This document shows positions 20,140-61,095 of a stretch of 64,000 nucleotides of DNA, in pieces. How positions within the stretch are numbered: position 1 is the stretch's first letter; the number at the start of each line of letters is the position of its first letter. Source of the stretch: a virus; the IMG/VR virus record IMGVR_UViG_3300037042_003932, positions 62,001 to 126,000 of that record; one strand, written 5' to 3'. A program made the translations under genes and the position numbers. The notes beneath the pieces are model-generated. The model saw nothing but the letters and a program-made list of their open reading frames with translations. It searched no databases and had not been told where the DNA came from.

Positions 20140-23100
20140 TCAGTCCGTGATTCTAATTTTGTTAGTGCCGCGAACTTCTGCTCGCACGCTGTCCAGGTAT
20201 ACGTACCGAGAGCTGCTTGTGGTCTCTCCACAGATACCAAACGCACCCGGCATGATATGATTTGTGTCCACGGTGGTGCATGTAGCGAGCACTGTTTCTC
20301 CTGAACGAGCAATGAGAGTCAGGGTGCTACCCACAGCCTCAAACTCAAGCTCAACAGTATCTCCTACAGTATAGGGGCACGCAATAGTAGCCAGGGAAGT
20401 TCTACCTTGCGTTCCTGCGCTGTCAAAGACACGCTCTATCTGCAACAAGGTATTCCCCGTTGAGATGTGATACAGCGTCCCCAAGTACCCATGCGCAATT
20501 CCAGTTCCAGCTGTGGCCCAGTGAATTCGTGTGAAGAATCCAATGCGGCCACCTGCGTACCCAACACGCGCATCACCTAAGATAGAGACATCCCTCAAAT
20601 AGGGATAAGCGTCCCAGCGCTCCCAACCAACTTCAGAACAACGCGCCGCATTGGAATAGATATCCCATCCGTCACCTGTCTGAGTGATGACGTCCCAGAA
20701 GTCACCAAGGTTCGTAGCGTCTGCCCGCGTGAATCTCTCGATGTACTTAAACGTGGAACGTTGACTCACTTGTCCCCAAGTAGCGTCACGATCTCCGAGT
20801 AGCAGAGCGCCGTTGGGTTCCTGTTTCGCTGCGTACTCAACAACCCACGCGTCAGTTATCTCGTGCACGATGGGTTCCGCCCACCATCCACCACCCTTTA
20901 TGCGCAAGTCTGCGGGAGCTGCCCACAAAGATTGATTGATAGGTCCCGGAATCCACGCTTTACCGATAGCGCCAGCGTTGTTCACGATTATCCCGCAGCC
21001 ATAACTGACATGCTGCCAAAAATCGATTATAATCGGAGTATCGAATCGTGCTCGTGCTGTGTCCTTGTGATAACCACCCCAGAATAACGGCACTTCACAC
21101 GTCTGCGTTCCACGTTCAGAGTCGTAGATTGCTAACCTTATTGTGGGGTCCGCTATTCCGTGAACCTGGTCTCTTACATAAGTTCTAGCGACGTCGTCAC
21201 CGCTATTATAGAAAGAGAGCGTAAACCGATTTGTGATAACTAACCCTGCACATTGCACGTCAACTAAAAGTAACTCGTCGGTCTTACATAGAAAACTTGC
21301 TTGGGGCATCATGGTCATCGATACGTGCATCCACCTAGGATCAAGACAATCATCCCATTGGATCTCTTCCGAACCCATAGTTGTTCCTTCCGGAACCCAG
21401 CTATGAGGCCACAATGTTCCAATGTTCAGCATGGGTGCGTCCCACCCTACAGCCTGAGAGTCCTGGTAAACACGAACATACGCTCGCCACTCGTCCTCAA
21501 GGTCTAATGGGTTTCCTCCGGCGAGATCCAAAGCGGCGTGCTCACGCCACCACCATCTTGGTGGATGCATATAGTACGTACGATTACGTCGTGTAGTCAG
21601 CGTACCTGTTGCCGTTGAACCAGGAGCATTGTTGATCCTGATGTAACCTGAAGTAGTCTCTGGACCTGCTTTGGCGCTCCAGCTCGTACACACCTTCGTA
21701 TAACCAGCTACAGAGAAACGAACATTCGTCCTCGAGTATGCGTAGTTTTGATTTTCTGGTTTTGTGAGAGTACCATCGGTGCTGTCGTGTAAAAAACCAC
21801 CTGTGTACGGGCCAGGTAACGGAAGTCCCGTACTCGCGTCCTCTTCAACACCACCTAACAACAAAGTAAAACTATACCCTGTGTCTAGGTAATAGGATCT
21901 AGCTGCTCGCCAACGCGACCACAAACGATTCCAATACGAAGTCCCACCGTAATCTTCTGGATCTCCAGCGTCACCAGCATCAGCCAAAAGCTGTTCGTCG
22001 TTAACAGACCAAGCAGACCCTGACCACTGAAGAGTCCATACACCAGGGTGCACAGCGCCTGTAGCCGGGTCTTCACCGCCGTATACCCAAATGGTGTCTA
22101 CCCCGTCATAACTCAAGGCACACGACACCAGGTTACGAGGTAAAGTAGATCCCGTAAGCGTTACAAGATACTCAGTCGCTACGGGGGTTGCTGGGTTAAC
22201 GATAACCACACGAAGTTTAGACGAGTGTACTTCTTTACCTCCAACGACTACAGCCATTCCGTCGAGGGACCCTCCAGAACAAAAGACAGCTTCCCCTCCG
22301 GAGTCTGCAGTAGCCAAAAGGTTCGTACCGAGCTCTGTGATAGTCCCCGCGCCGCTTGTGTCTACAACCAAGACAGTTCGAGAGTACACACCTGTCGTGG
22401 CTTCGCCTCCCAAGATGTACAACTTTTTGTTAGCCGGGTCCCACGCGGTAGCTGCGTTCATACGAGCTGACGCGTACGTTGCGGGGGTAGTTTTAACTCC
22501 ACCGTTCCAATAGGTTAACAAAATACCTACTAAGTCAGTGCCTAAAAGAACATACCGATAACTGAGAGTATCAGTTACGCCCGCAAATCGAAGTTGTTGT
22601 GTCGTGTCAGCTACTGAGTCTGCTCCAGTGATAGTTAAGTTTGTAGAACCACTCCAAGTAGAAAAATAGAAATCACCTGTAGGTGACACAGAAGCAAGAA
22701 CAAACATATGTGTGACATCGGTAGCCACCTGAACATCATGTACGTCACTAGGCCCGACCGTAGACTCTAGAGGTACTTCTAGCTTAAGAGTCGGATTGAT
22801 TACTATGTTTCTACCTTGGTAATCGATATGCCGCTCTTCTCGGCTACTCTCTAACATTTCACTTCTAGCTTTATCCCAGTAACTTGGACGGTAGGATTCT
22901 ACTGTACTCGGACCAGCCTTCTCGTTCCATATAGTGAATCCCGCGTTATTAAAATAATTAATCGAAGGTGAGCCGTACGTATTTTCAACAAGAACAGCGT
23001 CTCGAGGTGTGCAATAATCCCCTTGCATAACTAGAGCGCAACACAAGGCATAATCCAAAGTGTAGTTACATGCGCTCTGGTATGTCTCAGGGTCCGTATC

Positions 23101-27112: not shown

Positions 27113-28069
27113 CTAAGAAACGACGATGTTGATGGCTGAGCCAATAATGTTGGTGGAACGATGAACTCGGTAGCTAGTCGTCTGTGAGAAACCATTGGTC
27201 ACGTTTACGGTGTAACTTGTCTCAAATGGGACATCAAGATTCGTGCTCGCATCTTTGAAAGTTGAAGCCGTTCCAAAAGATGCCGGGTAGCCTAGGTACT
27301 TATGGCCACCAGCGCTGAAAGCGTACGTGCCAGCAAAAGCATTAGACAAACCACCCACACGAAGAGTCTCAATATCCCCTTCAATGAGAGGGCCTGCATT
27401 TACCGATTCTCCATAGAACTTTTTCCACTGCCAAGTTACCGTGAATGTATTCGTGAAGGTACCTGAGTTAGTGTTAACACCGTTTATCCGAAACACATGG
27501 GTTGTAGCGCTTGTTTTGGTGATTAGGGAAGCGGGGTAACTGGTAACCTGTACCCCATCATTAGCCGTCCCACTTAGAATCGTGACATCACCACTAGTGA
27601 CGTCTACCAGGTCAATCGAATTGGTAGCGACGTTAGCGCTGTTCGAGGTGGTCCATACGAAAGTTCTATTCGTGGAGATTGAATCTCCGACCTCCAACAA
27701 TATAGATTGTCCCGAAATCGAAAACGCAGTGAACGCCGGGTACTGATACGGGTAGAGTAAGCCATCGAACATGGCCGACATTGTCGCAGCATCAAATGTG
27801 GACCCAGCAGGCCACCCACCTACCGCTGTGGGCATAGGCGTTGTGTTCGTGTAAGTGTCACCGCCGCCACCCCCACCGCCCATGGCCTGGACTATCGCGT
27901 TTATCAGGCTGACCGTTCCGAAGGAATCCACATAGTCTTCCCACTCGGTATCGGCAGAGCTCAATGGGATAGCAGCAAAATTGGAGGGGACGAGAGCCCC
28001 GTCAACCGCTTCCAACAAGTTACCATCTCGGAAAGTCTGGTTGCCTAGGGTTCTCGTCTCTCGAGACAT
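27113..28069 (-). CDS. tail fibre-like protein with Gly-rich hinge
   Basis: A 318-residue protein. It opens with a short structural N-terminus, then an uninterrupted seven-Gly hinge at about 64-71, then a conserved-looking fibre module: a VGGWPAGSTFDAATMSAMFD segment and a LLYPYQYPAFTAF segment. The C-terminal 180 residues are Ig-like strands (EVGDSISTNRTFVWTTSNS) rich in Thr, Asn and Ser. Such modules occur in fibres of many tailed phages. The gene is 3 nt from the helical 171-residue gene. Confidence 0.66.
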   Translation of the reverse strand: MSRETRTLGNQTFRDGNLLEAVDGALVPSNFAAIPLSSADTEWEDYVDSFGTVSLINAIVQAMGGGGGGGDTYTNTTPMPTAVGGWPAGSTFDAATMSAMFDGLLYPYQYPAFTAFSISGQSILLEVGDSISTNRTFVWTTSNSANVATNSIDLVDVTSGDVTILSGTANDGVQVTSYPASLITKTSATTHVFRINGVNTNSGTFTNTFTVTWQWKKFYGESVNAGPLIEGDIETLRVGGLSNAFAGTYAFSAGGHKYLGYPASFGTASTFKDASTNLDVPFETSYTVNVTNGFSQTTSYRVHRSTNIIGSAINIVVS

Positions 28070-28071
28070 AT

Positions 28072-28587
28072 TTACTCCTTCAGGATGCCACAGCGTAACA
28101 GCATAAGCATAGTCCTGCCGTCAAATACGCTTTCGTCAGAATCGCTCCTAATTTTAGTATTTTCTACGCTGATGGTGTACGGCTCAAAATCGTGGTCTTC
28201 CTGTAGGAGTTCCTGCTCCTTTTTGGCCAACGCCTTCCTGTCTTCTTGCGCCTGGGGATGTTCTTCAACGAGAATTTTCATATCAGCGCGAAAAGCATCC
28301 ATATCTGCAATCGTGTACGCTCGTCCTCCTGGTTGTTGAGGGTCCGCGTGCGTCATAGGGTTACCATTCTCATCCTGTTGCGCGTGTCTCTCTGCTACAC
28401 TTTTTCTCGCGACCTCATAAATCGCCATAGCAGGAGACTCATGCAGCAGACTCTGCATGAGCTTAGCGTGTTCCAAAATTCCATGGAGGTTTTTCGCCGC
28501 CATCCACGCTACTTTTAAATTGTTGCTGTTCAGCGAAGGAGTCAATACGGTACGGAGTTCCAGCAGTTCATGGTTTTTCAACTTCAT
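28072..28587 (-). CDS. unknown helical protein
   Basis: A 171-residue protein, almost entirely predicted helix: an N-terminal KLKNHELLELRTVL segment, a region with HAKLMQSLLHESPAM, then a Lys/Glu/Gln-rich coiled-coil-like stretch around 110-135 and a hydrophobic end (TMLMLLRCGIL). Unlike its beta-rich neighbours it may be a fibre assembly chaperone, but the sequence has no recognised signature. An AGAGGACC site precedes the ATG. About 95 nt of noncoding DNA lie upstream. Confidence 0.58.
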   Translation of the reverse strand: MKLKNHELLELRTVLTPSLNSNNLKVAWMAAKNLHGILEHAKLMQSLLHESPAMAIYEVARKSVAERHAQQDENGNPMTHADPQQPGGRAYTIADMDAFRADMKILVEEHPQAQEDRKALAKKEQELLQEDHDFEPYTISVENTKIRSDSDESVFDGRTMLMLLRCGILKE

Positions 28588-28681
28588 TTTTGGTCCTCTA
28601 TGCGTGTGTGATTTCTAAAGTACCTTATGACTTTTTGGGGGATTACGCAATGGTCGTTAGCTATAACAGGGGAAGCGTTCG
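28588..28681. other. noncoding gap in the fibre operon
   Basis: This is one of the few gaps within the leftward tail block. On the minus strand it reads as a C-run followed by an A-run and a TAAGGT-like hexamer 17 nt after TTGCGT, a poor promoter match. I see no hairpin with a T-run and no open frame. It may hold a weak promoter or processing site for the downstream fibre genes, but nothing decisive is visible. Confidence 0.3.
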
Positions 28682-29701
28682 TTAACCGACGATTATCGGT
28701 GAGGGCTTGTACACAGAAGTAGCTGCGGGAGTATACGTAATGACTAACTTCGGGTCAGAAGCTGTACCTGTGTAATCCACCCATCGGACTCCTACAGCCA
28801 AATCAGCGTCCGCTTTCCATGTGATACCCGTCCCCGAGATATCAGACCCGATACGAACACCTAAAACGCTTATTCCCGTTTTGCTTAGAGCCGCTATGCC
28901 CGTAGCATCAAGGGTAAAAGTCTTATAGCCATTTGAAACTACGTAGTCAGCATACGACTTCGTTACGAAAACCGTAGTCCCAAACGAATTGAAATCAGTC
29001 GTCGCAATATTACCAGGGTCTGCAGGCGTAAAAGCAACTACGTTCAGGCTACCATCCACGGTGTCGTACGTGTTTACGTGATACGTATCGGTCGAGTACA
29101 GATGCAGGATAGCCTCTGTTATCGTAGCACCAGCTCCTAGGGCAGCAGTATCAAAAGAAAAACCAGCACGTCTCACTGCGTAATACTCATCCGTATCAGC
29201 GTGGCATGTGATACGCGACAGAACACCCGCTGTGGTCGTATTGGACTTAGACGTTCCGCTACCTGTGCGTATGCTGGACAACGTAGTCCCTACAGTAACC
29301 ACCCGAGCAGCATAACCGTCACAAGTAGTTCCACCTTCACCGTCAGCAGGAGCGACCGTGAGTTCAGCCAATCCAAAAGAATGCTGTGGCAGCAAGCGAT
29401 CTACTACGAGCCAGTCTAAGAAATGCAAAAACCACCAATAAAAGAACAACGAATAGTAGATACGTTTTGCGTACTTCGAGTGACTTCTAAAATCAGCCCG
29501 GTACACGTTGTCGCCCAGGGTTACTACGTAATGTTTGGGAGTTATCTCAACGAGGTGCTCAGGAGCGTCAATCCTGAGAGCGTGCCTGGAAATCTTTCGT
29601 TTAAGCCACGAGCCATTCAACCAGGATAACAAAGTGCCCTGGTGTTTTTGAAACCAATCGTCGTTAAATACCTTCCAAGGGCCACTATGCAATTGTGCCA
29701 T
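28682..29701 (-). CDS. tail fibre-like protein with C-terminal carbohydrate-binding-like sandwich
   Basis: A 339-residue protein. The ATG at 29701 is preferred because GAGGA lies 8 nt upstream; it overlaps the small gene before it by 17 nt. Residues 1-110 are basic and aromatic with a hydrophobic YYSLFFYWWFLHFLDWLV stretch (about 80-100) that could be a membrane or trimer-core segment. From about 160 the protein is a single sandwich (AGFSFDTAALGAGATITEAI, then VRWVDYTGTASDPKLVITYT) resembling the DNRLRE/CBM type found in surface proteins. Function unknown; carbohydrate binding is inferred. Confidence 0.6.
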   Translation of the reverse strand: MAQLHSGPWKVFNDDWFQKHQGTLLSWLNGSWLKRKISRHALRIDAPEHLVEITPKHYVVTLGDNVYRADFRSHSKYAKRIYYSLFFYWWFLHFLDWLVVDRLLPQHSFGLAELTVAPADGEGGTTCDGYAARVVTVGTTLSSIRTGSGTSKSNTTTAGVLSRITCHADTDEYYAVRRAGFSFDTAALGAGATITEAILHLYSTDTYHVNTYDTVDGSLNVVAFTPADPGNIATTDFNSFGTTVFVTKSYADYVVSNGYKTFTLDATGIAALSKTGISVLGVRIGSDISGTGITWKADADLAVGVRWVDYTGTASDPKLVITYTPAATSVYKPSPIIVG

Positions 29702-29900
29702 TACGGACATCCTCAACAATCTGGTCTACTTTTTCTTTTGAATCTATCCCTGTGAAAGCATACTGAATACTACCGTGTGGTACCAGTCCCTTGGTATCAG
29801 ACTGTTTGATGACGCCTCGGGTAAAAACCTGAATGAAAAGCATGTCATCGTGCCAATGGTACCAACGTATTTTACGTACTATAGCTATCTCAGGTTTCAT
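29685..29900 (-). CDS. small unknown protein
   Basis: A 71-residue protein with several aromatic residues near the start (IRWYHWHDDMLFIQVF) and an acidic, amphipathic C-terminus (SKEKVDQIVEDVRN). Its ATG overlaps the stop of the 1208-residue fibre by one base (TGATG), and its end overlaps the next gene. This coupling argues that it is real. A dedicated chaperone or adaptor for the adjacent long fibre is plausible, but this is inference from position only. Confidence 0.55.
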   Translation of the reverse strand: MKPEIAIVRKIRWYHWHDDMLFIQVFTRGVIKQSDTKGLVPHGSIQYAFTGIDSKEKVDQIVEDVRNGTIA

Positions 29901-32900
29901 CAGTCAGTCCAACTATTTACGGTGTATTCCAAACGTAGACCCAGAACGTACGCGTCTAACGATGTGGTGTCATGCGCAGTGTCTGTGGGGTCTCTCTGCA
30001 ACTTAAGAACCAGCAGCTTTCCACCAGCAGGAGTCCCACTCGGAGTAACACCTGTACTCCACGTGCCTATCTTAAGATCTTCAGCGGTGTCACCAACAAC
30101 AGTCTCCAACTCTTGAACTGTTCCCATGGTGAGATCAAGAGGGTTTCCGTCCGTTGCACAACCAGCAGATAACGAGAACAAGAAGTTATTAGTGCTGTCT
30201 GTGGCCACATTCATATACGTGATCTTGGCGTTAATAACGCCACCATCGTATGAGTCAGGGAGCAAGAACGACCACCAGGCTATACAAACACCTGCGTGAG
30301 CAAATTTAAGAACGTCAAGAACCTGTTTATTAGTGGTCAGCTCTCGCGTCTCTCGCGTCGCGGGGGTTGTGGTACCAAGAGCTGCTGACGCCGCAGGGAG
30401 AATTATCGACTTCGCTGGGTAAGCAGTTAAACCGGTTCCACCTACAGACACACCCAAAGAAGACCAACTCGTCACACCCGCGTCAGTAGACGTGAATACC
30501 TGCCCACTAACTGTAGGCATCGCTGTCGGCAGGGTGTACGTTGCATTCGCTGTCTGAGTTCCTGCTGTGAACGTTGTGTAATATGCATTGTCCCCAGCAG
30601 AGAACATCTTCAAATAACCAGCAGTGTTGCCAGTTGGAGTAGTTGCATCAAAACCTAAAACAACACCAGCAGGAATACTAACTAAGCCAACGTTAGAAAT
30701 AGTTAAGGCCGTGTTACTGATGCCCGTGTACGTATTCGACGTACCAAACATCATCTCTGTACCGACAGCCGTCCACTTAACGCCGATGCCTGCATTACCA
30801 CCAGCACCCCCATAAGAAGGAGTGCTGAACGTAATCTTCGTAACCGTATCCGCCGATGCGCTCGGACTAGAAATCGTTACCTGACCATTATTGCCGTCCT
30901 GGAAAACAGTTCTTGCTGCTGTGTCTCCACTTACACTCAGAAGGCTCAACGGATTCGTGGTGCCAATACCAAAGTTACCTGCGTGGTACGCTTTTGATGT
31001 ACCAGTAGAATAGATGGTCCAATGATTTGTGGGCTTCGTAAGCGTTGGGATGTACAGCGCATAAAAGTTGGTAACAACACCAACACCCGCGTAGTCATAA
31101 ACTCTGAACGCCGTAGAGGCTGTTACTGCTCCGCTTGTGGTAAGTACATACGTGAAACCAACGCTATCTGTGAGCGTCCCACCACCTGCGTACCGATGCC
31201 GAGACTGGAACGACACAATGTGGTTGTAAGTGATGTCCCCGTTAAGAACTGGAATAGAGTCAAACGACGCATACGCACCCGTATTCAGACTGGTAAACGT
31301 ACTCTCATCCCGGAATGCGTGTGAGAACAAATCTGTTCCGGCTACTGCGCGACAAATAAGCAAAGCCGAGTCATCACCGCTTGGGGCATTCGTTCCAAGG
31401 AACATACGTGGTAAACCAGAAGTAGCCGTCCCTGTTCCCGTATAAGCGTGAGCTGTGCTCAGACCCCAACCTGAACTCGTCTTAGGGCCTAAATCTCCCG
31501 TGCTGGCTGTTACGAGAAGAGGGAAGCTGCTTATGTCTGTAGCTTCAGCAGCCACGGTAATCGTGGTGGGCACCGCATGGGTGTGGAGGGTTGTTGCCCC
31601 GCCACCAGTCAACGCAGTGTGGTTAGCATCCGTAAGATGCTGATAGTTACCCCCTACCGCGTTGAGCCCCGACATGTTGTTGTGCAACGTAATGAGTGGC
31701 GTTCGGAAGTTACTCGCGTTCACCTCACCGTTGTGTACATAATAGATAATACGACTCGTGCTCGTTGAACGACCAAAAACAATCTCACCCAATCGGTCAC
31801 TACCATCAGCGGTTAAGGCGTGTACGCCCTGCACAGACTGCTTAGGTATCAACCCGTAATTCGTACTTAAATACGCAATGTTCCCGGTGTTGACTCCGAA
31901 TAGTCTCTTCCAAACCTTCCAATCGCCTGCCGGGATCGGCGTCGAGCTTCCCTCGTTGGTATACCCCACTAACGTTGTGACAGCGGCCACCTTAGCATCG
32001 CCACCTACAGCCCCCGTCGTTATAGGAAAGATGCCATCGGGCGTTTGGAGATAGCCACAAGTGCTAACGTCTGCTGTACCATCTCCTGCAGCAAAAGGAG
32101 TCCCTGTGCTAGCAGTTGCTGTACGCGTTGTGCCTGTACTGGACATTACCAGCGTACCGACACCTTGAATCACACGATACACGTTTCTATCTATCTGGGG
32201 AGTGCCACTCGCGCCATTTACTGAGCAATAAGTATTTACCGTCCACGTCCCAGCATCAAGCTGGGTGCGACCAAGCGCTGAGTTGTAAAGGTAACACTCA
32301 ATTATTTTTGGGGAAGTCGTTGTTGTCGTAGCTTCAACTACTTGAGGCTGCTCAGCAATAGTACGCGGAATCTTCAACAATGCCTCAACGGCATAAGCGC
32401 TCTGCCCCGGTCCCGTGCTAATAATCGAGGCATCGTCCGCAAAAAAATCAATACCAGCAGACCCAGATACTGTGACGCCAGTCCGCGATATCCAGTTCAT
32501 ACCATTCCAGACCAACTGGTCATCTATAGCTGGAGAAGGGGCACTCACGTCAGACAGATCGTTTATGCGGTACCCCTGGTAAATACGGATGTTCACCCTC
32601 CCCACAGTAGCCGACTTCGTAATGAGTCGTCCGACGCGGATCTCCAGGTTTGGTGAATCAGGAACCCCAACCCTCAACTTACCCGGCACTGCCGCCGATA
32701 GGTAGAGAACATCTCCCGCAGTCGTAGCTACGCCACCTCCAAAGGGAAGCACACTAGCAACGATCACATTGCCCGCTGTCTCCACGTGGACCTGAATATA
32801 CGCCGAGGGCGTGGTAGTGTTGATGAGGGTCGCAACCTGCGCCCGCGTCGGCGTCGTGCCGCCGAGGTCCACAATGATGGCCCCGCCAACCTCGGTATAG

Positions 32901-49869: not shown

Positions 49870-50451
49870 GTGGAAATAAGTCAAATCAAAAAGTGCACAC
49901 TCTGCCCTGAACTCGTGGCTAATCGAAAGAACGTAGTAGGTCTAGAGGGGCAATGCCCAGCTGAAATTCTTTTTCTTACGAATGCCCCGCGATCTAGGGA
50001 AGACACGCAGAAACGTCCACTCGCTGGGCTGAGTGGAAAGTTCTTTCGAGAGATTGTCGGATTCCTAAAGATAAACGAGCATTACCGCATAGCCTACATG
50101 CCTGTCGTCATGTGCATCCCACCAGAACGATTACCCACAGACCAAGAGATAACCAACTGCAGCACCAACGTCCAATCCCTCATACGTGCAGTTAAACCAA
50201 AGGTTGTGGTTGCTATGGGAATCCATACGCACAGTTTTGTTCTGGGGGTTCCTCTGCATAACATCCGTCCCACCGAGAATTGCGGCGAGACCGTCTATTC
50301 GAACTTCAACGGAGCCCTACCCCACTCAGTACCTGTTATCCTGACGTTTGACCCCAATGACGTTCTGAGAAATCGTATGAAATTCGAGGGGATGTACGTT
50401 CGACACTTGAGGGCTGCGGCTCGGCTCGTGTTCGTTCCTCCTCAAAAATAA
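49870..50451 (+). CDS. uracil-DNA glycosylase superfamily protein, Fe-S type, with altered active site
   Basis: A 193-residue protein resembling family 4 uracil-DNA glycosylases. Cysteines C9, C12, C82 and C97 have the spacing of the 4Fe-4S cluster (CxxC ... C-x14-C). In active members a GEAPG motif lies near residue 37 and an HPS-type motif near 171; here these read TNAPR and FDPND, so the residues expected for catalysis are replaced. It may be a DNA-binding relative, a superinfection or repair modulator, or an enzyme of changed specificity. Start is a GTG at 49870, following GAGG at about 8 nt. Good candidate for a degenerate or repurposed enzyme. Confidence 0.68.
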   Translation: MEISQIKKCTLCPELVANRKNVVGLEGQCPAEILFLTNAPRSREDTQKRPLAGLSGKFFREIVGFLKINEHYRIAYMPVVMCIPPERLPTDQEITNCSTNVQSLIRAVKPKVVVAMGIHTHSFVLGVPLHNIRPTENCGETVYSNFNGALPHSVPVILTFDPNDVLRNRMKFEGMYVRHLRAAARLVFVPPQK

Positions 50452-54974: not shown

Positions 54975-55571
54975 ATGAGACTAACGCTATGCTCGTTCTT
55001 GTTCACACTATCGGTAATGGTATCGCTAGATGTGAACGCAGTTGAAAGGCCCACTTCGGACGAAGCCAAGGGTGCCTGGATGACTGCGACACCAGAGGAG
55101 ATCGACACTGCCATCCAACATATTTTGGAAAAAGAGCCGGGTCATCACATGCGCCGTGATGTACCTGCTCGCCAAGAATTGGCAGCAAAGATCGTAGAAG
55201 TTGGAGAGGAACTAGGAATACCTCCAATGCTGGTTCTGACAATTGTTTTCCGTGAGTCTGACTTCGATGAGAAGGCTGTAGGGAAGTTAGGGGAGCTGGG
55301 GTTGATGCAAGTCGCAAAAATGCACGTTAGGAACCGTGAATGCGACATGACCAACGCAATCGGGCAGATGACCTGTGGCTCAGGGCTGTTAAAGGAAGCG
55401 TTCGACCTGTGCCACACGTGGAAGGGAGCGCTCACGCGCTACGCTACAAAAGCAGGACAATGCACGAGTAAGGACCCCTGGGTCCAGAGCAAGATAAAGC
55501 TCAGGCTCAAAGATTGGCAAAAGCTCTCGATGTTCGTACAATCAGTCTACGAACATGGAGACGAAGAGTAA
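54975..55571 (+). CDS. secreted lytic transglycosylase (probable endolysin)
   Basis: A 198-residue protein with an N-terminal signal-like segment (about 1-22, hydrophobic LCSFLFTLSVMVSLDVNA) and then an SLT-type domain: the catalytic Glu94 in FRESDFDEKAVG, GLMQV at 109-113, and cysteines in ECDMTN, MTCGSG, DLCHTW and GQCTSK that may form disulphides, supporting export. Cleavage of the glycan backbone of peptidoglycan is inferred. The signal sequence would avoid the need for a holin, or act as SAR. It has its own promoter. No spanin is recognised nearby. Confidence 0.82.
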   Translation: MRLTLCSFLFTLSVMVSLDVNAVERPTSDEAKGAWMTATPEEIDTAIQHILEKEPGHHMRRDVPARQELAAKIVEVGEELGIPPMLVLTIVFRESDFDEKAVGKLGELGLMQVAKMHVRNRECDMTNAIGQMTCGSGLLKEAFDLCHTWKGALTRYATKAGQCTSKDPWVQSKIKLRLKDWQKLSMFVQSVYEHGDEE

Positions 55572-55578
55572 CCTAAAT

Positions 55579-55705
55579 CGCCATGGCAAGGATCAGATGA
55601 TTGCTAGGTATACGAACGAAGTTACTTCGTTCATTTTTACGAGTGGGGTGCCCACTCTGGAGCTCGAGACGATCACGTGCCCCTCAGTGATACTTGACCA
55701 TGGCG
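55579..55705 (+). ncRNA. structured element A (tandem set of three)
   Basis: A 127-nt stretch in a gene-free gap. An outer stem pairs 55579-55595 with 55688-55705 (about 16 pairs, one bulge, one mismatch). Inside are two hairpins: GAACGAAG/CTTCGTTC around triloop TTA at 55614-55632 (8 pairs) and GAGTGGG/CCCACTC around GTG at 55641-55657 (7 pairs). A U-rich TACCTTTT follows. Similar elements B and C come next. The overlapping frame from 55555 is judged a chance ORF. Whether this is an RNA or DNA structure is unknown. Confidence 0.6.
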
Positions 55706-55714
55706 TACCTTTTG

Positions 55715-55851
55715 GAACAGAGCTGCTACTTGTTTTGGGACGATCTCAATCTTGGCTGAGTAACTCAGCTCTTTATTCGCTGCGCGTGGGTCCCGGGATG
55801 CTCTGTTCTGGAGACAGAGCCCTCAAAAGCAAAACAGTAGCAGCTCTGTTC
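55715..55851 (+). ncRNA. structured element B (tandem set of three)
   Basis: A 137-nt stretch. The outer stem is 22 pairs with a single bulged T: 55715-55737 (GAACAGAGCTGCTACTT, then GTTTTG) with 55830-55851. Inside are GCTGAG-TAA-CTCAGC at 55755-55769 (6 pairs, triloop TAA) and GCTCTGT/ACAGAGC at 55800-55820 (7 pairs, loop TCTGGAG). Next to the stem are GTTTTGGGACG on the 5' side and CCCTCAAAAGCAAAAC on the 3' side, shared with element C. A U-rich tail follows. Confidence 0.66.
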
Positions 55852-55863
55852 TGATTCTTTCCT

Positions 55864-55988
55864 AGCCTGTGTGTTTTGGGAACGTTCCTTGGAGACGCAG
55901 TAACTGCGTTCTTCTCTAGTTCCTATAAGGAAAAAGAGATTTTCTCCGGCGAGCTCCACATTTCCCTCCAAAGCAAAACACACAGGCT
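55864..55988 (+). ncRNA. structured element C (tandem set of three)
   Basis: A 125-nt stretch. The outer stem has 15 perfect pairs: 55864-55878 with 55974-55988. Inside are ACGCAG-TAA-CTGCGT at 55895-55909 (6 pairs) and TTCCT-ATA-AGGAA at 55920-55932 (5 pairs). The 5' flank GTTTTGGGAACG and 3' flank CCCTCCAAAGCAAAAC match element B. A CCTTTTCTTTTG tail follows. From 55989 to 56037 nothing else is seen except TATAAA at 56023, 15 nt before the next ATG. Confidence 0.66.
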
Positions 55989-56037
55989 CCTTTTCTTTTG
56001 CCTTTGCCTTTACGACGTAATCATATAAACTCCTCAC

Positions 56038-56319
56038 ATGTTTACAGACAATGAGAAAGTGATCGGGGTAATCGACGTCAACTCTGGTGGTATCATGATC
56101 ACTGACGTCGTCTGGAAGAGCGCACTTCCGTTAACCTCCGATCAGAGTGTTGCGCTAGACCTCGACCTGCCACAAGGGAAGATCCCAGTTATCGCTGTGA
56201 TGCGCGGAGGTAAACGCCTGCTGATTCTAGACCTCGATGGAATGTGGAAAAACACGGCCCTCGAAGAGAACGTCATTGTCGAAAACCCAGTAACGCAAGA
56301 AGAGGAGATGCCTGGATGA
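56038..56319 (+). CDS. unknown protein
   Basis: A 93-residue protein of two beta-rich halves with VIGVIDVNSGGIMITDVVWK and IPVIAVMRGGKRLLILDLDG segments, and an acidic end. No motif. A weak or absent Shine-Dalgarno (ACTCCTCAC) precedes the ATG, and a TATAAA box is 10 nt upstream, so translation may start from a very short leader. It overlaps the kinase gene by 4 nt (ATGA). Confidence 0.55.
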   Translation: MFTDNEKVIGVIDVNSGGIMITDVVWKSALPLTSDQSVALDLDLPQGKIPVIAVMRGGKRLLILDLDGMWKNTALEENVIVENPVTQEEEMPG

Positions 56320-56864
56320 TTAAGGTCATTGGGATCTATGGGAAGGCTCGGTCAGGGAAAACAACGGCACGCAAGTACCTGGAGAATAAGTACCACGTCA
56401 CGCCTATGTCTTTCGCTACAGATCTCAAAGAGGCTGTGCACAACCTATTCGGTGTCCCCATACAGGAGCTCTACTCCGATAGTAAGAGTGACCGCACTCG
56501 CTGGATTCTTCAGTTCTTTGGTACCGAATGCTGTAGGACGATTGACCCCGATATCTGGGTCAATAAGCTGAACGAACAGATCCTAATGCTGAATAACGAT
56601 GTCGATAACATAATTGTGATCGATGACGTCCGCTTCATAAACGAAGCAGGCATTCTCAAAAATAAATGGGACGCAACTCTTGTGAAGCTAGTGGGACCCG
56701 AAGACCTCGTCACCAACGACGAGCACAAAAGCCACATCAGTGAGACGCAGATGGACAGCGTTATGGATAGTGAGTACGACGCGGTGTACCTCAACACAGG
56801 TACTCTCGAGGATCTTTACGCGTTCATGGACGGCGTTTACACCATGGCTAAGAACACACCATGA
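56316..56864 (+). CDS. deoxynucleoside monophosphate kinase
   Basis: A 182-residue P-loop kinase; the ATG at 56316 overlaps the previous stop (ATGA) and follows GAGGAG. An upstream frame to 56244 is spurious. Seen: the Walker A loop GKARSGKT at 9-16 with K15, an RTRW segment (about 58), a DDVRF segment (acidic Walker B-like) with following NEAG, and a helical C-terminal half. This layout matches the phage dNMP kinases (T4 gp1-like), which phosphorylate dNMPs to dNDPs. With nrdJ and thyX it forms the dNTP supply of the phage. Confidence 0.8.
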   Translation: MIKVIGIYGKARSGKTTARKYLENKYHVTPMSFATDLKEAVHNLFGVPIQELYSDSKSDRTRWILQFFGTECCRTIDPDIWVNKLNEQILMLNNDVDNIIVIDDVRFINEAGILKNKWDATLVKLVGPEDLVTNDEHKSHISETQMDSVMDSEYDAVYLNTGTLEDLYAFMDGVYTMAKNTP

Positions 56865-58788: not shown

Positions 58789-59199
58789 TCACTTGTGGTT
58801 GTACGCAGACAGGAACTGCTGACCATCAGTGCCAGGGCGTTGCATAACAAACCCCCAACTCCAGACCAGAGCATCGACTATAGCTACCACAGCCCATGGA
58901 AGGAACCAGCTATGACGCGCTGTGGCCTGGGCCAATATCAAACACATAGCCATCTCAAAACAAGCCATAAGCAGGGGTGCAGCGTGTCGCCACGCTGGCG
59001 ACCCCAGCAACTTAGTAGCAGGACCACACTCGTAACGAGAGAAGTAAAACTTCCCTCCAAACTTGTGGGGCCAGGGTATCATCTTTGTAGGTTTTCGGCC
59101 TTCGACGACCCAACCCAGCATCAAGTGCGACACCTCATGCAGTACGTTCTGCATGAACCACGCAACAATGAATAGTCCTGCTAGTAAGTACCAGTTCAT
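58789..59199 (-). CDS. integral membrane HExxH protease-like protein (S2P/M50-like)
   Basis: A 136-residue protein with three hydrophobic segments (about 4-30, 75-95 and 98-118). The first contains HEVSH (H21, E22, H25), the zinc site of M50 site-2 proteases. Near the end RPGTDGQQF gives an Asp-Gly that could be the third ligand, in the place of the S2P D-G motif. Intramembrane cleavage of a host or phage protein is inferred. The gene starts inside the ThyX stop (4-nt overlap). Confidence 0.62.
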   Translation of the reverse strand: MNWYLLAGLFIVAWFMQNVLHEVSHLMLGWVVEGRKPTKMIPWPHKFGGKFYFSRYECGPATKLLGSPAWRHAAPLLMACFEMAMCLILAQATARHSWFLPWAVVAIVDALVWSWGFVMQRPGTDGQQFLSAYNHK

Positions 59200-59822
59200 T
59201 CGGGCCTCTCGGGTTTATCTTTGATGATATCCTCAAAGAATACGTGATGTGATGCTGGAATAGCCTTGTACATATCCCAAGCAAGTTTACGATATTCAAG
59301 AAGCACATCCTTGTTTAGGCGGGTATTGAACAGGTTACGCAGGCTGCGAGCGTTGATTGTGAAGATGAGCTGGGTAAGCATGGCTTCGGGGATTGCGTAC
59401 TTTGCAAGGTCATTGGGGATTCCCAGCTGTACTAGAGATTTCAAATGCATCATCTGTACGTGTGAAGCGGTGTCCACATCCGAATTTCCCGTGTGATAGT
59501 ACAGCTCGTCGATGTCCTGTTCTTTACGGAGTAACTTCCCCAAAGTGAACCTAGAGCTCTGAACACTCTCCACAGCGATACGCGTCCGCGAGAACTCCTG
59601 CAAACACGCACGAGAAAGCTTAACCTCGAAAGTGAACACACAGTGCTCGAGGACGCTGGTGTGCCCGCTGTTGATGCAGCGAGTGACTAAGTCGTGATCT
59701 TTGGGACCAAGATACAAACTGAGGTCTTCCGTATCCGACTTATCTTGAGAGGCTTTGCACATACGTATCGCTTCGACAACTGCGATGACGGGTGTACAGC
59801 GGAGTAATTTGGCGACTGTCAT
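59196..59822 (-). CDS. thyX: FAD-dependent thymidylate synthase
   Basis: A 208-residue enzyme making dTMP from dUMP with flavin. Seen: GHTSVLEH at 53-60, the ThyX signature R79-T-R81-x7-S89 (RTRIAVESVQS, with the usual middle His replaced by Thr), and the C-terminal NARSLRNLFNTRLN helix that contacts substrate. The enzyme is a little short but complete. It overlaps the gene before and after by 4 nt. The His to Thr change is noted under findings. Confidence 0.85.
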   Translation of the reverse strand: MTVAKLLRCTPVIAVVEAIRMCKASQDKSDTEDLSLYLGPKDHDLVTRCINSGHTSVLEHCVFTFEVKLSRACLQEFSRTRIAVESVQSSRFTLGKLLRKEQDIDELYYHTGNSDVDTASHVQMMHLKSLVQLGIPNDLAKYAIPEAMLTQLIFTINARSLRNLFNTRLNKDVLLEYRKLAWDMYKAIPASHHVFFEDIIKDKPERPE

Positions 59823-60084: not shown

Positions 60085-61095
60085 TTAAAGCCGACACAGC
60101 AGCTTCTCCATCAAGAACTCCCAACTCGTCTGGAACCCTGCAGCTCCCTTGTGCCCACCACCCCCAGGGAAAGGCCCAGCCTCACCGCAGCGCTTTGCAA
60201 TATCGCCGCAGTCGATGTCTGGGTCGATAGAGTAAAGACTAACCGTGACTTTACCGGTGTTCTCGTACGCGAAGCCAAGCATGATCTCGTGCTTCTCATG
60301 GTCATAGACACTTGCGAAGCGGTCGCTGCCACGTGCTCCAAAGTTTGCAGCGATGACCGAGTACACATGGCGTCCATGGATAGAAGCAGGGTACGGAACG
60401 GTGAGCTCAGCATCGAACGCCCGGCTCTTCATGAGGGCTGCGCTCTCAGAGACCTCGAACATCTTAATGCTGGTGCCTACACGGACAGCTTCGTCTACTT
60501 TTGCCATCGTCGTGTAGCCGGAATCGGAACGTAAGATATCGAGAGTGTAGCAGTAGAACCACTCAATGATACCCTCGGGGACCATGGTATCAAAGTACAT
60601 CTTAAAGAACGGGGCCTTGCTGTCGACTATGTTCTTATGACGCCAGGTGTCCCAATCTCCAACAAGCCTTATAGCATCTGGAGCACCATTCGCACACAGC
60701 TCCGCAACTTGCATAAGGCTTTTACCTGGCAGGTTAAACCACGCCCACGTCAGCTCTGCTCCACAAACACCATCGAGTCTCACACCATCATAACCCCAAC
60801 CAATCCCCTTCTCTTTCTGAAGGAGTTCATACGCGCTAATGCTGCTTGCGTGGTGATCAATCCAGATGAACTTAGCTACCCGGTTTGCAAGGGCTTCCAT
60901 ACCCTCGTCAAAAGGCTGCAGCGAAAAGTCCAGCATGTAAACGGTATCCTCAGGACCAAATACGTCTGGCAGAGTCATACCGTAATTCATCTCGATTAGC
61001 TTGGGGTAGATACCCTGCTTATCAAGGAACGCTCGGGCTACACCAGCGCTGGCATATCCGTCTAAGTCGTTGTGATGAATGATGTAGGTTGTCAT
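60085..61095 (-). CDS. DHH-family phosphoesterase
   Basis: A 336-residue protein with the DHH superfamily motifs: HHNDLDGYAS (7-16), a MLDFS Asp near 56, WIDHHASS with the DHH triad at 80-82, GDWDTW (about 146), and a C-terminal DHHA1-like GGGGHKGAAGF at 311-321. These enzymes hydrolyse short oligonucleotides (nanoRNase) or cyclic dinucleotides. Which of these applies cannot be decided. A phage could use it to recycle RNA or to destroy host defence signals (inference). Confidence 0.85.
   Translation of the reverse strand: MTTYIIHHNDLDGYASAGVARAFLDKQGIYPKLIEMNYGMTLPDVFGPEDTVYMLDFSLQPFDEGMEALANRVAKFIWIDHHASSISAYELLQKEKGIGWGYDGVRLDGVCGAELTWAWFNLPGKSLMQVAELCANGAPDAIRLVGDWDTWRHKNIVDSKAPFFKMYFDTMVPEGIIEWFYCYTLDILRSDSGYTTMAKVDEAVRVGTSIKMFEVSESAALMKSRAFDAELTVPYPASIHGRHVYSVIAANFGARGSDRFASVYDHEKHEIMLGFAYENTGKVTVSLYSIDPDIDCGDIAKRCGEAGPFPGGGGHKGAAGFQTSWEFLMEKLLCRL

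Follow-up and report, generated by a model that had tools for sequence, protein, structure and literature searches.

The 64,000-nucleotide stretch of phage DNA analyzed here (the window; bases 62001-126000 of G000, a viral record of 143,878 bases) contains a 466-nt gap at 55572-56037 that is filled by three tandem stem-structured elements, A, B, and C. This locus raises the question of whether the elements are functional RNAs and, if they are, which machinery they serve. A preliminary description had taken them for structured noncoding RNA in which the structure is kept while the stem sequence changes, with a layout without parallel among described phage RNAs. Relatives, covariation, and wobble pairs confined to one strand confirm the first claim. 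The second has to be given up, as the elements share the layout of a retron msr-msd RNA and a retron-type reverse transcriptase (RT) is encoded in the phage clade outside the window.

Anatomy of the three elements and their surroundings

The array is flanked on the left by a lysis-type SLT transglycosylase gene (54975-55571, + strand; Pfam SLT, 4e-9), a 38% homologue of which adjoins an element in the relative G025. On the right, it is followed by a small gene (56038-56319, +) that is kept in five relatives (alignment A1) and by the conserved deoxynucleoside monophosphate (dNMP) kinase gene (56316-56864, +; PHROG 139, 2e-39, and relatives). A lysis gene with its own promoter had been proposed upstream of the array; the lysis-type gene stands, while the promoter near 55514-55542 is only a 10/12 match, about the level seen in shuffled sequence. 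The window also codes for a ThyX-type thymidylate synthase (59196-59822), a uracil-DNA glycosylase-family protein (49870-50451), and a DHH phosphoesterase (60085-61095). In G025, a TnpB-like gene (L138:380-1381, - strand) adjoins the SLT gene and the ncRNA element.

Measured from closing stem to closing stem, elements A (55579-55705), B (55715-55851), and C (55864-55988) are 127, 137, and 125 nt long, lie on the + strand, and are annotated here as retron-like ncRNAs 1, 2, and 3; B and C each form an inverted repeat. The features first listed for them, namely these sizes, the long outer stems, the second hairpins, the U-rich tails, the hairpins with TTA, TAA, and TAA triloops and AG..CT flanks, and the motifs common to B and C (GTTTTGGGA(A)CG and CCCTC(A/C)AAAGCAAAAC), are all present in the sequence.

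In element A, an a1-like 5' arm of the closing stem (55579-55595) pairs, with bulges, with an a2-like 3' arm (55688-55705). The first nucleotide inside the stem, G55596 in a CAGA context, is the candidate priming G, a role suggested by retron biology (PMC6868368). Downstream are hairpin P2 with a UUA triloop (55612-55632), which is a candidate RT-recognition hairpin, a second, msd-like hairpin (55641-55657), and a conserved 3' core, CCCCTCAG (55680-55687), which adjoins a2 and is the putative start of reverse transcription. Element B has its a1-like and a2-like arms at 55715-55737 and 55830-55851, a candidate priming G at 55738, hairpin P2 with a UAA triloop at 55754-55770, an msd-like hairpin at 55800-55820, and the 3' core CCCTCAAAAG adjoining a2 at 55820-55829. 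The corresponding parts of element C are the arms at 55864-55878 and 55974-55988, a candidate priming G at 55879, hairpin P2 at 55895-55909 (UAA triloop), an msd-like hairpin at 55914-55938, and the 3' core CCCTCCAAAG adjoining a2 at 55964-55973.

Against dinucleotide shuffles, the whole gap folds at z = -5.8, and on the + strand A, B, and C fold at z = -4.5, -6.2, and -6.5, respectively. The longest perfect stem closing 80-180 nt in the gap is 16 bp, as compared to at most 11 bp in 200 shuffles of the gap. Genome-wide, only three perfect stems of at least 13 bp have such spacing, those of B and C and an unrelated one beyond the window. No second sequence-level copy of the elements was found in the G000 genome. 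A search of 4227 Rfam models gave no match at gathering score, and the matches at relaxed thresholds were weak and far below the gathering scores. The layouts of Hammerhead, phi29 pRNA, Y RNA, and put-RNA were rejected because they had no Rfam support. The 16-mer CCCTCMAAAGCAAAAC was likewise discarded as a family marker; its 57 matches in viral contigs included none with a stem and are attributed to chance. Near the contig end, an AT-rich, gene-poor stretch outside the window (G000:C1:142676-142816, L063) holds a 141-nt long-stemmed structure. It is similar in span but lacks the triloop hairpin and the core motif and was rejected as a further element.

Recurrence in a phage clade, covariation, and strand

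Searches with the SLT gene, with the dNMP kinase, and with the DNA itself (the latter in a phage collection) returned no near relatives. A search with the large terminase (L061:10145-11821, - strand) returned 37 viral contigs at 42-93% identity and opened the clade. About 30 elements of the A/B/C build were found in 13 clade contigs, as single copies or in tandem (one to four), at several gene junctions. In relatives, the home junction has the order lysis-type gene, array, small gene, and dNMP kinase, and the copy number at this position is three in G000, two in G004, three in G006, four in G022, one in G025, and three in G028. Further copies are located between the DNA polymerase and the terminase (G015, G016, G017, G018, G022, G028, and G029), near a small membrane-protein gene (G003, G018, G020, and G025), and after a helicase (G028). 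Wherever the neighbors are clear, the elements are downstream of a gene and in the same sense. One uncertain element (G006, 22142-22309) was left out of the counts.

The preliminary description had proposed a check for relatives and covarying pairs, and with the clade in hand the paired positions covary strongly. In an alignment of 10 sequences taken from relatives only (A5), both sides were changed in 13 of 15 pairs, and pairing was 89% versus 65% in shuffles. A covariance model built from A5 (R1) recovered held-out elements of relatives at the expected places (G022c, E 7e-4; G025y, 4e-3; G006b, 7e-3; G006a, 0.2). When run with filters off on window positions 55500-56100, its top three matches were A (E 5e-4), B (4e-3), and C (5e-3), all on the + strand. 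With default filters R1 missed A, B, and C genome-wide, owing to its weakness in the variable middle. For 30 condensed elements (27 phage and 3 bacterial), 96.4% of cells were paired, versus 52.7% when shuffled and 31-48% when partners were slid; this count is biased for the closing stems because these were picked by complementarity, while the held-out R1 matches are unbiased.

Across 34 elements, the first nucleotide inside the closing stem is G in 31, the nucleotide before the 3' arm is G in 32, and that G is preceded by A in 28. The triloops are UUA, UAA, CUA, AUA, or CAA. The stems contain 28 G-U and a single A-C, and thus the sense-strand RNA is the functional form. This bears on readings at the level of DNA, in which the elements would be cruciforms, packaging or replication sites, or miniature transposons. 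The inverted arms of 15-22 bp that enclose ∼100 nt would suit such elements, but the G-U pairs fall on one strand only, the orientation is fixed relative to the upstream gene, and the stem sequences are unrelated between copies, with no second genomic copy by sequence. We therefore give a DNA-level origin a negligible probability; the cruciforms, packaging sites, and plain terminators listed as alternatives at the outset are disfavored.

A retron-type reverse transcriptase in the same phages

Retrons are bacterial anti-phage systems that consist of one RNA, one RT, and one effector. Since the anatomy of A, B, and C resembles that of retron msr-msd RNA, an RT was sought in the clade. It was found in 14 of 15 contigs and is carried by all 11 of the element-bearing contigs of at least 37 kb; five RT-bearing contigs (G011, G019, G023, G027, and G036) showed no clear element. 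In G000, the RT (C1:57116-58285, 389 aa) lies outside the window, ∼59-60 kb from the array (117579-117988).

In PADLOC, the phage RT matched retron RT_XIII (1e-56); the match covers the type XIII profile from position 115 onward, the N-terminal extension being missing. In NCBIfam, retron_St85 matched at 9e-36 (124 bits, which is under the curated cut-off) versus 5e-17 (62 bits) for group II, and in the PDB the RT matched retron Ec67 (7e-14) and also Ec86. An AlphaFold2 model of the G003 orthologue (pLDDT 92.6) was compared using Foldseek; the best 15 matches were all retron RTs, with a target-normalized TM of 0.82 to Ec86, and retron RTs ranked ahead of group II, DRT, and DGR enzymes. In a tree, 12 phage RTs form one clade (support 99/99).

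Two other RT-based systems were rejected. A group II intron is disfavored by the 62 versus 124 bits and by the absence of an Rfam match in the window. For a diversity-generating retroelement, the sole self-repeat of more than 100 nt in the genome is a tandem duplication of ∼237 nt (G000:C1:133612-134085, 77.5% identical) within a run of small genes, and DGR RTs rank below retron RTs.

The catalytic motif is YADD in most of the phage RTs and YSDD or YCDD in a few. In region X (NAxxH), A112 and H116 are invariant in 13 RTs and the N is replaced; this N is likewise missing in two validated retron RTs (PMC6868368). Region Y reads LLG or MLG where retron RTs have VTG, so that only the G is retained, and single substitutions in VTG are known among validated retrons (PMC6868368). 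The phage RTs also carry a C-x2-C...H-x-C insert after region X.

The RT sits in a gapless core operon that is conserved in most relatives, and therefore there is no space for an RNA in cis. The contiguous RNA and RT cassette of a canonical retron is thus absent, and for this reason, together with the absence of VTG, the system was not filed as a canonical retron. The RT neighbors are proteins of 228 aa and 468 aa without a Pfam match, and no toxic effector gene was identified. A DUF2201 metallopeptidase/VWA protein is conserved two genes upstream of the RT, and an AAA (MoxR-like) ATPase is encoded further upstream (genes at L061:11803-13050 and L061:14827-16464). Elsewhere in G000, a 1452-aa protein (27290-31648; L060:7290-11648, - strand) has RNA polymerase beta-type matches, and a phage-encoded multisubunit RNA polymerase is probable. 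A second phage group, with viral contigs of up to 190 kb (L353-L362), has related RTs (∼32-36% identity), in whose vicinity no triloop element was seen.

A split, multi-template retron as the best reading

In retrons, a G at the inner end of a1 serves as the priming site, and an 8-bp stem capped by a 3-nt UUU loop is bound by region Y of the retron Eco1 RT (PMC6868368). Elements of the A/B/C type have the complementary ends (a1/a2) and the G at the inner end of a1 that mark a retron RNA. To these they add a 7-bp hairpin with a 3-nt loop, the msd-like hairpin, and a conserved start adjoining a2, and the clade has a retron-type RT that is close to bacterial retrons of type XIII by PADLOC and to Ec67/Eco2 and Ec86/Eco1 by sequence and fold.

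The nearest bacterial RTs (L376, L377, L375, and L380) have RNAs of the same build in cis. A genome scan yielded 45 bacterial RTs, and in 365 kb of these loci the P2-type hairpin (at least 7 bp, G-N[AU]A-C) occurred 11 times on the RT strand. Five of these occurrences, from four phyla, are directly upstream of the RT (L375, L376, L377, L380, and L381). In L376 (Kofleriaceae) the element is complete, with a 17-bp closing stem, the G inside it, the hairpin, an msd-like hairpin, and CAGG before the 3' arm. R1 gave no significant match on the bacterial loci, the best being the L376 hairpin alone (E 0.07), and the link between RNA and enzyme consequently rests on anatomy and position and not on the model.

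Based on this evidence, we consider it very likely that the three elements belong to a split, multi-template retron served by the phage RT, each of them being an RNA of the msr-msd type. In one alternative, the elements have no relation to the RT, which copies another template, and are phage noncoding RNAs such as stable RNAs derived from 3'-UTRs or RNase III substrates. That they close transcription units at the 3' end and run in the sense direction, that terminators end some arrays, and that RT and RNAs are far apart would fit this. It does not account for the matching hairpin and closing stem that the nearest bacterial retron RTs have in cis, for the conserved G inside a1 and the 3' core adjoining a2, or for the RT in every larger element-bearing contig, and we judge it unlikely.

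According to the summary of Lampson and Rice (1997) in PMC6868368, Nannocystis Ne160 has repeated msr-msd-like copies that lack an RT within one kilobase. As far as that summary goes, it is like the phage arrays in having multiple copies away from an RT, and it differs in that these are duplicated repeats in a bacterial chromosome, whereas the phage copies are divergent in sequence, belong to tailed phages, and have an RT that is identified and conserved in the clade. The duplicated copies in Nannocystis without a nearby RT, again as summarized there, would also suit a second alternative, in which the phage elements are relics, that is, spread msr-msd copies that now act only as terminators or spacers, reverse transcription having been lost. 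The short msd parts and the U-rich tails point the same way. The strong covariation and the constant core in diverged copies indicate continuing selection, and the catalytic residues of the RT are intact (YADD or a variant), which makes a relic origin very improbable.

Retronphage phi-R73 and P2/186-like prophages provide retrons in phage-related genomes, as here, but these are single-RNA cargo cassettes (PMC6868368), while in the present clade the RT is a core gene and the templates are dispersed. More generally, the RNA adjoins the RT in the retron cassettes described in PMC6868368, and in the phages the two are apart. The phage system further differs from bacterial retrons in that the RT is in the core operon, the RNAs are several and in trans (one to four in tandem, plus other junctions), no effector was found, LLG replaces VTG, the Cys/His insert is present, and the N-terminal extension is missing. 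No description of a phage retron with several RNAs in trans was found in the literature searched, which covered few subscription journals. By analogy, the phage system is best read as one that would work like a retron, in a split, multi-template variant.

In the split retron, transcription of A, B, and C would run on the + strand and follow the lysis-type gene. Each RNA would fold so that the a1/a2 closing stem surrounds the 3-nt-loop recognition hairpin and one or more msd-like hairpins, and would be cut out at the closing stem. The phage RT, made from the core operon ∼60 kb away, may then bind the triloop hairpin in trans and prime from the 2'-OH of the conserved G inside a1 (G55596, G55738, or G55879), with copying expected to start at the nucleotide adjoining a2 (55687, 55829, or 55973) and to proceed into the msd part. 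Because A, B, and C look like templates for a distant RT, a single enzyme probably uses several RNAs to make small DNAs, and the predicted product of an infection is several different short RNA-linked ssDNAs (msDNAs). For the clade as a whole, we think it probable that these large tailed phages keep a core retron-type RT as a trans-acting machine, which charges operon-end templates that change and diverge in sequence and are structurally standard, giving several msDNAs per infection for the benefit of the phage.

What the msDNAs would do is a more tentative matter. Our leading guess is counter-defense or competition with other phages, in which the hairpin ssDNA could act as a decoy or a sensor. 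Since the copies differ in sequence and keep their build, a role set by shape, for instance as a decoy that occupies an ssDNA sensor or nuclease of the host, or as a sensor in superinfection exclusion, is possibly likelier than sequence-specific pairing.

This phage lineage seems to own a retron machine that has been freed from its RNA and whose templates have multiplied. If true, the finding raises the question of which uses phages have for msDNA and would provide natural cases of one RT serving several RNAs, which would be useful for the production of ssDNA in cells. It would also supply a structural signature with which RT-distant retron RNAs overlooked by cassette-based searches may be found.
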